Shown here piece by piece: positions 27,016 through 64,000 of a stretch of 64,000 bases of DNA. The DNA comes from Candidatus Methylacidithermus pantelleriae (GTDB lineage Bacteria; Verrucomicrobiota; Verrucomicrobiia; Methylacidiphilales; Methylacidiphilaceae). A model generated the notes under the pieces. That model made no database searches. It was given only the letters and a program-made list of their open reading frames with translations, and was not told where the DNA came from. A program made the translations under genes and the position numbers. Within the stretch, counting starts at the first letter, position 1. Every line of letters begins with the position of its first letter. The stretch spans positions 112,149 through 176,148 of the forward strand of contig NZ_CAJNOB010000012.1 of the NCBI RefSeq assembly GCF_905250085.1, given 5' to 3'.

Positions 27016-27984
27016 CTACCAGCCCAAGATGTAGGCAAAAAGCAAAGGCGCTACAATCGTAGCATCCGATTCAATCATAAAACGGGGGGTGTCCACGCTC
27101 AGTTTCCCCCAGCTGATCTTTTCGTTGGGCACAGCGCCAGAATAGGAACCAAAACTTGTGGTCGAATCGCTAATCTGGCAAAAATACGCCCAAAATGGCA
27201 CATCCCTTCCAAGATCCTGCCGTAACATGGGCACGACACAAATGGGGAAATCTCCCGCGATTCCACCCCCAAGTTGAAGGAAACCTAACGGTGCCCGTTG
27301 TGTGACCTCGGAATAAAACCGACCCAGCTCCATCATGTATTCGACACCTGTCTTAACTGTCAGCGGATTACGAATCCGCCCGGCAAGGCAATGGGCCGCG
27401 TACATGTTTCCGAGAGTCGAATCTTCCCAACCGGGTACGACCATAAATAGCTCCTTTTCCATGGCTGCCACAAGCCAGCTATCCTTCGGATCGACCTGGT
27501 AACTTCCCTTGAGCTTCCCCGATTGTAAAACTTTCCACAGAAATTCATGGGGAAAGAAACGCTCTCCTCGCTCGTCGGCATCCATCCATTGCTCCAGCAC
27601 AGCTCCCTCGATCCGCCGCATGGCTTCCATTTCAGGAATACACGTATCGGTCACCCGGTTGAGATGCTCTTCCCAGAGTCGTCGATCGTCCTCAGCGGTC
27701 AGTTCCCGAAAATTGGGGATCCGGCGGTAATGGTTATGGGCCACCAGATTAAAAAGATCCTCCTCCAAGTTGGCACCGGTGCACGAGATGGCATGGATTT
27801 TTTCCTGTCGGATCATCTCCGCTAGCGTCAGACCGATTTCGGCCGTACTCAGCGCGCCGGCAATGGTGACCAGCATCTTGCCCCCGCGCTCCAGATGATC
27901 CCGATAGGCACGAGCCGCTTCCCGCAGGGTAGCAGCATTAAAGTGCCGGAAATGATGCTCGATAAACGAACCGATAGGTCCCAT
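27016..27984 (-). CDS. deoxyhypusine synthase family protein
   Basis: 322 aa. Homologous to deoxyhypusine synthase, which in eukaryotes and archaea transfers an aminobutyl group from spermidine to a lysine of eIF5A using NAD. The active-site region NEKISWGKLSVD is conserved with the Lys intermediate at K294; LVTIAGALSTAEIGLTLAEMIR and ISCTGANLEEDLFNLVAH (in part: TGANLEEDLFNLVAH) are the NAD-binding blocks. Bacteria lack eIF5A, so the bacterial proteins likely act on polyamines (for example homospermidine formation) or another target; that is inference. Followed downstream, on the same strand, by the IS607 fossil B border. Start ATG 27984. Confidence 0.88.
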   Translation of the reverse strand: MGPIGSFIEHHFRHFNAATLREAARAYRDHLERGGKMLVTIAGALSTAEIGLTLAEMIRQEKIHAISCTGANLEEDLFNLVAHNHYRRIPNFRELTAEDDRRLWEEHLNRVTDTCIPEMEAMRRIEGAVLEQWMDADERGERFFPHEFLWKVLQSGKLKGSYQVDPKDSWLVAAMEKELFMVVPGWEDSTLGNMYAAHCLAGRIRNPLTVKTGVEYMMELGRFYSEVTQRAPLGFLQLGGGIAGDFPICVVPMLRQDLGRDVPFWAYFCQISDSTTSFGSYSGAVPNEKISWGKLSVDTPRFMIESDATIVAPLLFAYILGW

Positions 27985-28845: not shown

Positions 28846-31023
28846 ATGGGCGGCTACTCCGGAGAAATCTCCAGTAAAACCCTCACCCGTCGCAGTGGGT
28901 CCAACTTAGCCACGGCTCTCTATTGTCTCCCGCGCCGGCGGCAGGAAGCGATGATCATTTTTTATGGGTTTTGCCGCTGCGTGGACGATATCGCCGATAG
29001 CCCTCTTCTGAGCCGTGAAGAAAAAGAGCGGGAACTTGCGTTTTGGAAAGAGGAGATTGAGCGGCTCTATCGCAAGGAAGCGTCGTCTCCACTCGGCCAA
29101 GAGCTTCAAGAGATCGTAGAAACCTATCAGATTCCTAAGGAGTTGTTGCACGAGATCGTGGCCGGGGTTCGAATGGATCTAGACATCCAGCGGTACCCCA
29201 GTTTCAAGGAGCTCCAGCAGTACTGCTACCGGGTAGCCTGTGCCGTGGGGCTAGTGAGCATTCGGATTTTCGGGTGCAGTCACCCTCAAGCAAACGACTA
29301 TGCCCATGCTTTGGGAATGGCCTTTCAGTTGACGAATATCCTCCGGGATATCGGTAAGGACGCCGCCAGCAACCGAATCTATCTTCCCCTAGACGAATGC
29401 AAGGAATTTTCCGTTACGGAATCGCAGATTCTCAAGGGAGAGATAACCCCCGGTCTTCGAGACCTTCTTTTTCTCCAGTATTGGCGAGCACGCCACTATT
29501 TTGAGCGCTCGCTTCGTCTGATCCCAGAAGAAGAACGGCTAAACCTCATGGCGTCGGAGCTCATGCGAGGTTGTTACCAGCGACTTCTTGAAAAGCTCCG
29601 ACAGAAAGGGTTTCCGATCCGGGGTGCCAAGGTCAACCTGTCCCGAGGGGAAAAATTCTGGTGCCTAGCCAAGGCTTACTGGAGAGAAAAGCGCAAGGTC
29701 AGGCTCCCTAGGTCTCCCAAAAACGTCGTCGTGCTCGGAGCAGGAATTGCAGGACTGGTGGCGGCAGTCCGCCTCGCCCAAGCTGGTCATAAAGTGAAAG
29801 TGTTGGAATGCAAGGCCTATCCCGGTGGTCGGGCAGCCTCCTTCTGGGATCATCGTTTGCAAGTCAAACTGGATACTGGCCAGCACATTCTTTTGGGGTG
29901 CTACCGCCGGACGCGATCCCTATTGGAAGAGTTTCGACTGGAAAGGAAGATCCAGATCCTCCCGTTACGGCTCTGTCTTATGGATGGACAGCGAAAGAAA
30001 CGGATCCAAGTGGGGCGACTCCCCAGCCCCTGGCACTTGCTTGTGACGCTATCCCAACTGGGAAGTCCAAAGGATTTCCTTTTCCCCGCCCTTCGGCTTG
30101 CGTCCTCCCTTGGAGAAGGAAAAGAACCTGACCCAACCCTGACCGCCGCTGCCTGGTTGCGGGCCCAAAGGCAGCCGGAAGAATGGATCCGGGTCCTTTG
30201 GCAACCCTTTTGTCTTGCCAGTACCAACCTGGGGCTTGAAGAGTGTTCCGCAAGACTCTTTCGCCGGACCGTGTTGCGATCCTTATGGAGCTCGGAAGAG
30301 GATTGCCGGCTCCTATTGCCCAAAGTACCGCTAGGAGAGCTTTTGGCAGAACCGGTTGCGCGGTTGATCCGGTTTTGTAGCGGCGAGATTTTTTACGGAA
30401 CCAAAGTTACGCAACTGGTGGTGGCGGGTGACCACGTGAAAAACGTGGTCAGTTCCGACGGCCACGTGATCGAGGCGGATCACTTCATTTGCGCCCTTCC
30501 CTGGGACGCAGCTGCCCAGCTTTTTCCTCCGGAGAGCGAGCTTGCCTATCGTTGTCGATCCCTGGGACGATCCAGTATCCTCAACGGATACCTCTGGTTT
30601 GACCGGCCTCTCACAAAGGAGCCGGTCATCGGCTTTGTGGATTCACCGGTGCACTGGGTTTTTAATCGAACGCTTTTGCACGATCTTCCACCTACCCAAG
30701 GGTTTAGTTATGCCGTTGTGACGAGTCGAGCCGACAAGTGCCTGGCCGGTTCCCTTCCCAAATTGGAAAGGATTGTTCTTTCAGAGTTGCAGCGACATCT
30801 GCCAACCACTGGCGAGGCCAAACTTCTCCAATCCCTATGGTTCCGGTGCCGTTCGGCTACGCCGGAACTTACTCCCGAGCGAGAGGTTCTCCGTCCCCCG
30901 TGCGTGACCGGTTGGAAAAACTTCTGGCTGGCGGGGGATTGGACCAATACCGGTCTGCCTGCGACGATTGAAGGTGCTGTGACCAGTGGGGAAGAAGCTG
31001 CCATGCGAGTCGAGGAGGCATAG
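28846..31023 (+). CDS. presqualene diphosphate synthase / hydroxysqualene dehydroxylase fusion (HpnD-HpnE)
   Basis: 725 aa joining two consecutive enzymes of squalene formation. Residues 1-285 are a trans-isoprenyl synthase of the squalene/phytoene type: DDIAD (47-51) and NILRDIGKDA (around 164-173) are the two Mg-diphosphate motifs. From about residue 294 an FAD amine-oxidase-like domain begins (VVVLGAGIAGLVAAVRLAQ, then GGRAASF), with the HpnE-like GHILLGCY and a C-terminal WLAGDWTNTGLPATIEGAV-type FAD motif (in part: LAGDWTNTGLPATIEGA). The expected product is squalene for hopanoids or sterols; a phytoene synthase/desaturase pairing is the alternative. Start ATG 28846. Confidence 0.85.
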   Translation: MGGYSGEISSKTLTRRSGSNLATALYCLPRRRQEAMIIFYGFCRCVDDIADSPLLSREEKERELAFWKEEIERLYRKEASSPLGQELQEIVETYQIPKELLHEIVAGVRMDLDIQRYPSFKELQQYCYRVACAVGLVSIRIFGCSHPQANDYAHALGMAFQLTNILRDIGKDAASNRIYLPLDECKEFSVTESQILKGEITPGLRDLLFLQYWRARHYFERSLRLIPEEERLNLMASELMRGCYQRLLEKLRQKGFPIRGAKVNLSRGEKFWCLAKAYWREKRKVRLPRSPKNVVVLGAGIAGLVAAVRLAQAGHKVKVLECKAYPGGRAASFWDHRLQVKLDTGQHILLGCYRRTRSLLEEFRLERKIQILPLRLCLMDGQRKKRIQVGRLPSPWHLLVTLSQLGSPKDFLFPALRLASSLGEGKEPDPTLTAAAWLRAQRQPEEWIRVLWQPFCLASTNLGLEECSARLFRRTVLRSLWSSEEDCRLLLPKVPLGELLAEPVARLIRFCSGEIFYGTKVTQLVVAGDHVKNVVSSDGHVIEADHFICALPWDAAAQLFPPESELAYRCRSLGRSSILNGYLWFDRPLTKEPVIGFVDSPVHWVFNRTLLHDLPPTQGFSYAVVTSRADKCLAGSLPKLERIVLSELQRHLPTTGEAKLLQSLWFRCRSATPELTPEREVLRPPCVTGWKNFWLAGDWTNTGLPATIEGAVTSGEEAAMRVEEA

Positions 31024-61971: not shown

Positions 61972-63786
61972 TTACCTTCCACCAGGCCCTCGTTTCCCTC
62001 TCTCTCCCATCAAGCTTCCACTGGCACGATATTCCCGAAACACGTCTTTCTTTTCCAAGACCACCTGGACGAAGCTCACAAGACCCCCCATGAACGGATC
62101 CTGCATCCCGCGGTGCGACTGAGGATTCGGAAAAACCTTCGGGTTGGTCATATGATCCAAAATATGGCAGTGGAACATCCAGCGGCCTGGATTATTCGCG
62201 ACAAAGGCTAAGTCAGCTGTTTGCCCGGGTCCTAACAAAACCGTGTTGGCCAGAAATGGTTGGGGCAGAGGAGAACCATCCAAAGCAACAACACGAAACG
62301 TGTAGCCGTGAAGATGCATCACGTGATTTTCCCGGGCGCTGGCGTTAACGAGGCGCATCCGAACCTTAGCCCCCAGGGGAACACAAACGGCTGGAGCATC
62401 CGGAAAAGCCTTCCCGTTTAAGGTAAAGAGGTTCTCTTCCTCACTACCTCCCACCTTGAAAGAGCCAATTTCATACAAAAACTCCTCTTCCCAACCCGCT
62501 GGATCGACTGTTGACGGATCTACCACCAGAACCCCGTGTAACCCCTGATCCATTTGGAACTCATCATGGAAATGGGTGTGATAGAGATGCGTTCCGACCA
62601 TGGAAGGGGTTACGGTAAACCGATAGGTGTACACCTCCCCGGGCCGGACCGGTTCCTGGCTGATTCCAGGAACCCCATCCTCGCTTTCGGGAAGAGGAAG
62701 GCCGTGCAAGTGGAGGGTCGTCGGTTCCGGCAGCTCATTTTTTAACTGGATTTCTACCTTTTCCCCCACGCGCAGCCGCAAAAGAGGTCCAGGAACCTGT
62801 CGATTATACCCCCACGCTTCCACCACCAGCCCAGGTGCAACCTTCCAGGGAAAAACACCGGCCACTAGCTCGTACCGCCGGGTCCCATCCGGAAGTACTT
62901 GCGGAACCATGCCCCTTCCCTCCGTCACCTCCCAGACACGTTGACATTGCCGCTTTTCTTCCGAAGGAGAAAGGGAAGGGCCGGAATGAACAACCACGCG
63001 TTGCCCCTCTGTCGCTTCATAGCGATCCCCCATCGCGGTACGGCAAATCCAATGGGTGCTCCATGCCATCACAAAACCTGCCACCAGCGCCCCCATCACC
63101 AGAAGCTGCTGGGGTTCACGCCGCACACCCGCCAGGAGCTCCTTTTCGACGTAAAAGATGGTGCCACCAGCCATTGCCAGGGTCAGGATCGAAAAAAGCT
63201 GCGATTGCCACACCGAACCTACAAGCGTCCCCAAAAAGGTTGGCCCCCCTGCAATCGCCGCTAAAATGGCTAGCGTTCGCCAGGATAAAAGCTGCCCCCG
63301 AGCAATCGCCGGTCCAACGATCCCAAAACCTTCCGTTCCATTGTGAAGAGCAAACCCAACGGCCAAACTGAGCGATAGATCGGCCATCCCCTGGGCGTAC
63401 GCCTGCCCAATCGCCAAGCCCTCCGTTAGGTTATGAAGACCGATCCCAATGGCCACTAGATAGACAAGCCCCGGATAGGAACTTGCGAAAAAAAGCCACT
63501 TCTCCAGGCACACTAACCCGAGGAACCCCAGCCCAAAACCCCCACAAAAAAAGAAAAAAGCCGCCGCTCCCTCCCACGACCCTTTCCTGGCTTGTGCAAC
63601 TCGCCAGGCTTCTTCAGCCGACTCCGAGAGAACTTCCACCAAAAGAAAGGCCAAGATGCCCACAGCCGCCATGCTCAAGGCTGCCTTAAGAGAACGGTTC
63701 AAAACCGGAACTCGTCCTACCGGCATGCCCACAACAATGGTTGCCCCAGCTACAAACCCAAGGAGAAGGAGACTAGAAAAGCCCAA
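61972..63786 (-). CDS. ZIP metal transporter fused to a two-domain multicopper oxidase
   Basis: 604 aa in one frame. Residues 1-245 form a ZIP-family permease with about seven hydrophobic segments and the metal motifs HNLTEGLAIG (118-127) and HNGTEGFGIV (148-157). Residues 260-590 form a cupredoxin-type multicopper oxidase with all four copper motifs: THLHLHG-like TLHLHGL (H359, H361), THLYHTHFHDEF (H400, H403, H405, H407), NHVMHLHGYTF (H488, H491, H493) and MFHCHILDHM (H539, C540, H541, H545, M546). It is short for a three-domain oxidase. Start TTG 63786 is backed by AGGAGG at 63793-63798. Inferred role: oxidising a metal (Cu+, Fe2+, Mn2+) at the membrane and linking that to transport. Confidence 0.85.
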   Translation of the reverse strand: MGFSSLLLLGFVAGATIVVGMPVGRVPVLNRSLKAALSMAAVGILAFLLVEVLSESAEEAWRVAQARKGSWEGAAAFFFFCGGFGLGFLGLVCLEKWLFFASSYPGLVYLVAIGIGLHNLTEGLAIGQAYAQGMADLSLSLAVGFALHNGTEGFGIVGPAIARGQLLSWRTLAILAAIAGGPTFLGTLVGSVWQSQLFSILTLAMAGGTIFYVEKELLAGVRREPQQLLVMGALVAGFVMAWSTHWICRTAMGDRYEATEGQRVVVHSGPSLSPSEEKRQCQRVWEVTEGRGMVPQVLPDGTRRYELVAGVFPWKVAPGLVVEAWGYNRQVPGPLLRLRVGEKVEIQLKNELPEPTTLHLHGLPLPESEDGVPGISQEPVRPGEVYTYRFTVTPSMVGTHLYHTHFHDEFQMDQGLHGVLVVDPSTVDPAGWEEEFLYEIGSFKVGGSEEENLFTLNGKAFPDAPAVCVPLGAKVRMRLVNASARENHVMHLHGYTFRVVALDGSPLPQPFLANTVLLGPGQTADLAFVANNPGRWMFHCHILDHMTNPKVFPNPQSHRGMQDPFMGGLVSFVQVVLEKKDVFREYRASGSLMGERGKRGPGGR

Positions 63787-64000
63787 CCGTGACCTCCTCT
63801 TTCAGGATTGTCATCCTCACCCACTGGGAAAAGAACTTGGGTTAGTTGAGACTCCTTCTCAAGAATTTTCTTCGGAAAGCGTACCCAAAAGGACTAAAAC
63901 CAGCAAGGCCGCCGCATCCAGGCGTACACAAAGCACGGATGCGGCGATCCAAAAGAAGCGATATCCAAGGTCTCCAAAACCATCTAATATCCCTTGTGGG

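Follow-up and report, generated by a model that had tools for sequence, protein, structure and literature searches.

A ZIP-type transporter joined in one frame to a two-domain multicopper oxidase in Candidatus Methylacidithermus pantelleriae, a fusion that recurs in two orders

The 64,000-nucleotide stretch analysed here (the window) comes from contig NZ_CAJNOB010000012.1 of 'Ca. Methylacidithermus pantelleriae', which PMC8170126 describes as a verrucomicrobial methanotroph. Near its end, on the reverse strand, a single open frame of 604 codons joins an N-terminal ZIP-type transporter to a C-terminal multicopper oxidase (MCO), an order that we denote ZIP-MCO. An initial annotation of the window had placed a ZIP permease and a two-domain multicopper oxidase in this one frame, and this was confirmed, with both folds recovered in predicted models. 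The same models led us to reject chance motif resemblance. The host assembly consists of 71 contigs (2,459,655 bases) and carries a gene of PF02461, the family of subunit A of AMO/pMMO.

A database search with the fused protein reported 783 matches, of which 120 were listed. Among these listed matches, 82 (our own protein included) have the ZIP-MCO order, most of them aligning over at least 90% of the query at 41-74% identity, while 15 have the reverse order (MCO-ZIP) and 23 are oxidases alone. The initial annotation, which knew of no such fusion, had recommended a search for other ZIP-then-oxidase proteins. The arrangement is not unique to this genome, MCO-ZIP is common in one phylum, and an archaeal pair of neighbouring genes has already been proposed for copper uptake. 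Databases name these proteins after just one of the two parts ('zinc transporter ZupT', 'manganese oxidase', 'multicopper oxidase').

By fold and motifs, the membrane half is predicted to be a ZIP-type transporter. Since the whole-chain structure comparison barely probed this part, it was modelled separately, and the model has the predicted eight-helix ZIP fold. The residues H118, N119 and E122, together with H148, N149 and E152, are present, and the ZIP metal-site residues are kept in 76-79 of 79 relatives. The Pfam Zip family (PF02535) scored 33.0 bits against a curated value of 35.1, and 35.2 in the genome-wide search; of the four Pfam families listed for the protein, none was FTR1, and the membrane half matched Zip. 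As a ZIP transporter, this half would carry a divalent metal.

The oxidase half contains two predicted cupredoxin domains. Its type-1 ligands are confined to the C-terminal domain (HCH with Cys540), and domain 1 has HTH without Cys. As PMC13151041 defines type B by type-1 copper in the second domain only, the motifs make this half a predicted type B two-domain multicopper oxidase, with copper loading likewise predicted. Its structural matches, 2zwn and 3g5w, have HCH in domain 1, so the fold match alone does not show type B. Scores for the CopA/CueO resistance oxidase families fell below the NCBIfam curated values (TIGR01480, 140.3 vs 478.95; NF008205, 96.1 vs 525). We looked for loss of copper ligands on alignment and found none, and the claim that all ligands are intact stood for His and Cys. 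For the axial Met, we rejected M546, beside HCH, as a family feature: of the 94 rows, 50 carry Thr at this column and 13 carry Met. From the sequence, the axial type-1 ligand is probably M566. The coordinates of all parts are collected in Table 1. One oxidase-only relative, P0107 (Alicyclobacillus acidoterrestris), reads GTHAYFSDTD where the HxH copper motif of domain 1 should align; without this motif it may be non-catalytic.

Table 1 Features of the ZIP-MCO fusion gene in window coordinates.
Feature	Position	Strand	Basis
ZIP-MCO fusion gene, 604 aa, TTG start	61972..63786	-	single open frame, 604 codons
Likely ribosome-binding site, AGAGGAGG on coding strand	63793..63800	-	sequence read; function inferred
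ZIP half, residues 1-251, eight transmembrane helices	63034..63786	-	Pfam and predicted fold
HNLTEG, residues 118-123, helix 4 metal-site motif	63418..63435	-	aligned to BbZIP H177 N178 E181
HNGTEG, residues 148-153, helix 5 metal-site motif	63328..63345	-	aligned to BbZIP Q207 D208 E211
Linker, residues 252-299, predicted extracytoplasmic, partly disordered (256-265 pLDDT <50)	62890..63033	-	model and charge bias
Cupredoxin domain 1, ~residues 300-438, HLHG and HTH copper motifs, without type-1 Cys	62473..62889	-	
HLHG, residues 359-362	62701..62712	-	both His kept in 94/94 rows
HTH, residues 403-405	62572..62580	-	both His kept in 94/94 rows
Cupredoxin domain 2, ~residues 447-578, carries type-1 copper motif	62053..62448	-	
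HVMHLHG, residues 488-494	62305..62325	-	three His each in 94/94 rows
HCHILDH, residues 539-545, type-1 Cys540 and His545	62152..62172	-	C540, H541, H545 in 94/94; H539 in 82/94
Met566 in conserved MGGL motif, likely axial type-1 ligand	62089..62091	-	73/74 rows; role inferred

Genome samples gave different pictures for the two orders. In the host's phylum (288 genomes sampled), both halves of ZIP-MCO were spanned only in the host's own genome; seven others matched the oxidase half, one of them starting at residue 222, and none of the five other genomes of the host's family matched at E 1e-40. Under stricter limits, both halves were spanned in 2 of 59 genomes of the order of an Alicyclobacillus genome (the oxidase half alone in four more), and in 1 of 111 and 1 of 396 genomes of two other phyla, in each case the genome on which the search was centred; the sample of 396 was run at E 1e-100 with three candidates scored per genome. 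Named hosts of fused forms include Alicyclobacillus, Kyrpidia, Aneurinibacillus, Deinococcus, Actinoallomurus, a Dactylosporangium and an alphaproteobacterial metagenome genome. Such sporadic occurrence of ZIP-MCO looks like lateral spread. MCO-ZIP is common in one phylum, where 75 of 149 genomes matched, 65 over both halves and 10 in part, and all 20 fetched stretches hold it in a single frame. The genome of locus L024 (G293, Centralia_MAG_155) is titled Proteobacteria bacterium. Yet the sample drawn for its class overlaps with the one drawn for the phylum of the Eremiobacterota genome G294, and the same 75 genomes matched in both, so the title looks wrong.

The two parts also occur as neighbouring genes. 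A search of plasmids matched 4159 records, of which 30 were listed; in 29 of these 30 the query aligned to two annotated genes, a transporter and an oxidase. The four plasmids examined, from Rhodococcus, Rubrobacter, Deinococcus and Gloeocapsa, have the oxidase gene first. It overlaps the transporter gene in three of them and is separated from it by 20 bases in the fourth; three of the four clusters have a Rieske gene nearby. With the type-1 Cys in domain 1, these oxidases are of type C. ZIP-type transporters have thus been paired with two-domain oxidases of two kinds. The ZIP-like transporters of the split pairs have an extra N-terminal part before the ZIP helices (L086 6831-8093, L087 6771-7961, L088 6837-7991, L089 6879-8066).

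The initial annotation had noted that the side of the oxidase would be set by the permease topology. In the 66 of 74 aligned rows that contain the ZIP half, the predicted cytoplasmic loops average 3.05, 3.38, 2.56 and 2.29 Lys+Arg, compared with 1.05, 0.39 and 0.03 in the loops predicted to face outwards. Beyond helix 8 the tail carries more Asp+Glu (3.86) than Lys+Arg (1.55) and is therefore acidic. From this charge bias both termini, and therefore the oxidase, are predicted to lie outside the cytoplasm. Most of the 15 printed N-termini of MCO-ZIP proteins look like export signals by eye, which again puts the oxidase outside. For either fused order, the oxidase is thus predicted to be extracytoplasmic, at the outer face of the cytoplasmic membrane.

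On this basis we propose, with a probability of roughly 0.37, that the outer oxidase turns Cu(I) to Cu(II) at the mouth of the transporter and that the ZIP half imports divalent copper. In such a cycle the oxidase half would use oxygen to oxidise Cu(I), and the Cu(II) formed would be handed over to, and taken up by, the ZIP half; copper would be the metal, and the oxidase may form a trimer as in other type B enzymes, with three ZIP units under one oxidase ring. Of the metal couples known for multicopper oxidases, Cu(I)/Cu(II) is the one with a divalent product, ZIPs carry divalent ions, and oxidised iron and manganese are not divalent. Copper is favoured on the grounds that Cu(II) is such a divalent product, that the host has a copper monooxygenase to supply, and that in N. 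viennensis copper limitation raises MCO1 together with the ZIP gene beside it, as reported in PMC7785015.

A bolder form of this proposal, which we consider quite improbable, is a one-chain 'oxidise-then-import' machine: a trimeric oxidase ring would sit on ZIP elevators, make Cu(II) in its central tunnel, feed the pores beneath, supply the verrucomicrobial methane monooxygenase, and impose three-fold symmetry on normally dimeric ZIPs. BbZIP forms dimers, though unstable ones, according to PMC9873690, and type B oxidases are described in PMC13151041 as trimers with type-1 sites facing a central tunnel, so one chain cannot easily satisfy both. Conceivable ways out of this symmetry puzzle are a trimer of ZIPs, a hexamer, or a ZIP that stays monomeric, and any of these would be of structural interest.

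Several observations weigh against coupled copper import. Some of them come from the trees, for which we sampled 20 of the 82 ZIP-MCO matches and 16 MCO-ZIP rows, 10 of these from the 15 matches and the other six from loci. Oxidase-only rows numbered 26 and stand-alone ZIPs 18; a quick tree was built for the oxidase, and the stand-alone ZIPs L085, L087 and L088, beyond the profile's reach, were left out. Eight of the 10 sampled oxidase-only matches nest among ZIP-MCO rows, as do 7 of the 18 stand-alone ZIPs, some of which end like broken fusions; either half can therefore be lost or gained. The nesting, together with the 23 of 120 listed matches that have no ZIP half, means that the oxidase can do without the transporter. 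Of the 66 members compared, the query also deviates most at the conserved columns of each half (23/110; 23/148), and with its nearest relative P0002 it sits on a long branch of the ZIP tree (0.99), which points to fast evolution in the host lineage. As for ancestry, a clade of exactly the ZIP-MCO and MCO-ZIP rows, excluding the nested solo rows, was rejected (p-AU 2.2e-6 for the oxidase and 2.5e-4 for the ZIP half), and the same clade with these rows included was not (p-AU 0.65 and 0.41). The outcome hinges on the nested rows, and either history stands: a single fusion that was later permuted, or two fusions that arose separately.

Other points on the same side concern residues, hosts and gene neighbours. 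To our knowledge, most of the named hosts of fused forms are not known users of a copper monooxygenase, and the host's own genome has a CopD-family place, a candidate copper importer. The position of the BbZIP helix-6 Glu (E240), a residue of the BbZIP metal centre (PMC9873690), is Thr183 here in a phmmer alignment, and the column is Thr in 76 of 79 relatives; the helix-6 Glu ligand of a BbZIP-type binuclear centre is thus absent. Three fused relatives (P0069, P0072 and P0081) have lost ZIP ligands and retained those of the oxidase. A DtxR-type iron/manganese regulator adjoins MCO-ZIP in L024, L157 and L158; it carries a FeoA domain and lies directly upstream in L024 and L157, and was recognised in L158 by a profile of our own. 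A 'metal-dependent transcriptional regulator' lies near two of the split pairs, those of Rubrobacter and Deinococcus QL22. At L085 the nearest genes encode a cation diffusion facilitator, another ZIP transporter and an ArsR regulator, as in a general metal island. On the archaeal side, PMC7785015 reports that the MCO1 response conflicts between two species, with N. maritimus called conflicting, and the ZIP gene next to MCO1 is reported in PMC7819960 for one metagenome genome.

Among the alternatives, the one that survives best is that the oxidase protects the envelope by CueO-like oxidation of Cu(I), with the ZIP half mainly an anchor or an independent zinc importer and no metal passed between the two; we hold it to be rather unlikely, and serious because the oxidase persists without the ZIP half. 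Besides the nested oxidase-only rows and the three fused members with degenerate ZIP sites, it draws on the hydrophobic N-terminal stretch (19-residue hydropathy >1.6) of 20 of the 23 oxidase-only relatives among the listed matches, and on P-type ATPases, a two-component system or metal-efflux genes near ZIP-MCO in L007 and L085. However, an anchor would hardly explain why the ZIP metal site is so widely kept, and the two parts have been joined or paired repeatedly, in either order and also with another type of oxidase, beyond an anchor's needs.

An iron or manganese importer with a ferroxidase gate appears unlikely. In this reading Fe(II) or Mn(II) would enter through the ZIP half, and Fe(II) would be oxidised by the outer oxidase, either feeding another ferric carrier or keeping competing or excess Fe(II) off the pore. 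The DtxR-type regulators at three MCO-ZIP loci and the absence of a FeoB_C place from the host's own genome (0/1 genome), where another iron importer may be needed, make this a serious rival. The regulators near the Rubrobacter and Deinococcus QL22 pairs and an Nramp transporter within 4 kb of the Rubrobacter pair point the same way, and a type B two-domain oxidase is reported to have oxidised Fe2+ in vitro (PMC13151041). However, the DtxR profile was found in 2 of the 20 fetched MCO-ZIP stretches and L024, not in L069, and at none of seven ZIP-MCO loci (L001, L005, L006, L007, L008/L159, L011 and L085, some with short flanks). Moreover, Fe(III) is not known as a usual ZIP substrate, so the product of a ferroxidase cannot simply be passed on. 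Finally, that two separate genes were joined by an assembly or sequencing error, a doubt raised in the initial annotation, was checked and rejected as having next to no chance of being right: the assembly is a draft and the contig ends 214 bases away from the gene, but the same order is shared by the 82 listed matches, mostly at near-full query coverage.

Gene neighbourhoods offered little further guidance. The 20 MCO-ZIP stretches share little around the fusion, the clearest elements being a divergent FAD-oxidoreductase frame in about five and the DtxR gene in two. ZIP-MCO is adjoined in L006 by rhodanese, TusA and DUF302 genes and a second oxidase, and in L005 by ribonucleotide reductase; no common theme emerged around the fused genes, with gene calls being longest-ORF guesses and the L011 neighbours outside the scan. 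In the window, the same-strand neighbours include a carbamoyl-phosphate synthase large chain and a frame that we take to be valyl-tRNA synthetase, and have no metal theme. Elsewhere in the window, a second in-frame fusion (28846-31023, +, 725 aa) joins a squalene/phytoene synthase (PF00494) to a flavin amine oxidoreductase (PF01593), possibly for hopanoid or carotenoid synthesis, and 27016-27984 (-) encodes a deoxyhypusine-synthase-family protein (PF01916, 322 aa) in this bacterial genome.

Compared with known systems, the fusion resembles the fungal Fet3-Ftr1 system, as outlined in PMC4585334, in that a surface multicopper oxidase works with a metal permease; there iron is the metal, and the oxidase is a protein distinct from its permease, which comes from a different family. 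Paracoccidioides, treated in the same source, is a loose analogy only. With BbZIP (5tsa, 7z6n, 8j1m) and ZupT-type ZIPs it shares eight helices and metal-site motifs in helices 4 and 5, whereas these have no oxidase, BbZIP has Glu240 in place of Thr183, and BbZIP is given as dimeric in PMC9873690. The type B oxidases SLAC and CjMCO, as presented in PMC13151041, likewise have two cupredoxin domains with type-1 copper in the second only, and a trimer would be expected here too; CjMCO is soluble and exported with a Tat signal, while the N-terminus here is an eight-helix transporter. The plasmid clusters of Rhodococcus, Rubrobacter, Deinococcus and Gloeocapsa also encode an oxidase together with a ZIP-like transporter, but as separate genes, with a type C oxidase and a transporter that has the extra N-terminal part.

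PMC7785015 and PMC7819960, both citing Kerou 2016, mention MCO1 and an adjacent ZIP permease as proposed for copper acquisition in ammonia-oxidising archaea, a proposal that rests on gene neighbourhood and expression. By description, both cases combine a two-domain multicopper oxidase with a ZIP permease in copper-monooxygenase organisms, but the archaeal genes are two neighbours where we found one gene, and N. viennensis MCO1 is stated in PMC7785015 to have Leu at the axial position. Among the open-licence PMC papers listed by our searches, the longer lists being covered in part, we found no description of a ZIP-MCO fusion; subscription journals and preprints lay outside this scope. The paired-gene idea is already in print for archaea. 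Conserved in two opposite orders, the covalent fusion makes the cooperation of oxidase and ZIP permease directly testable, with one protein, two mutable sites and one uptake assay.
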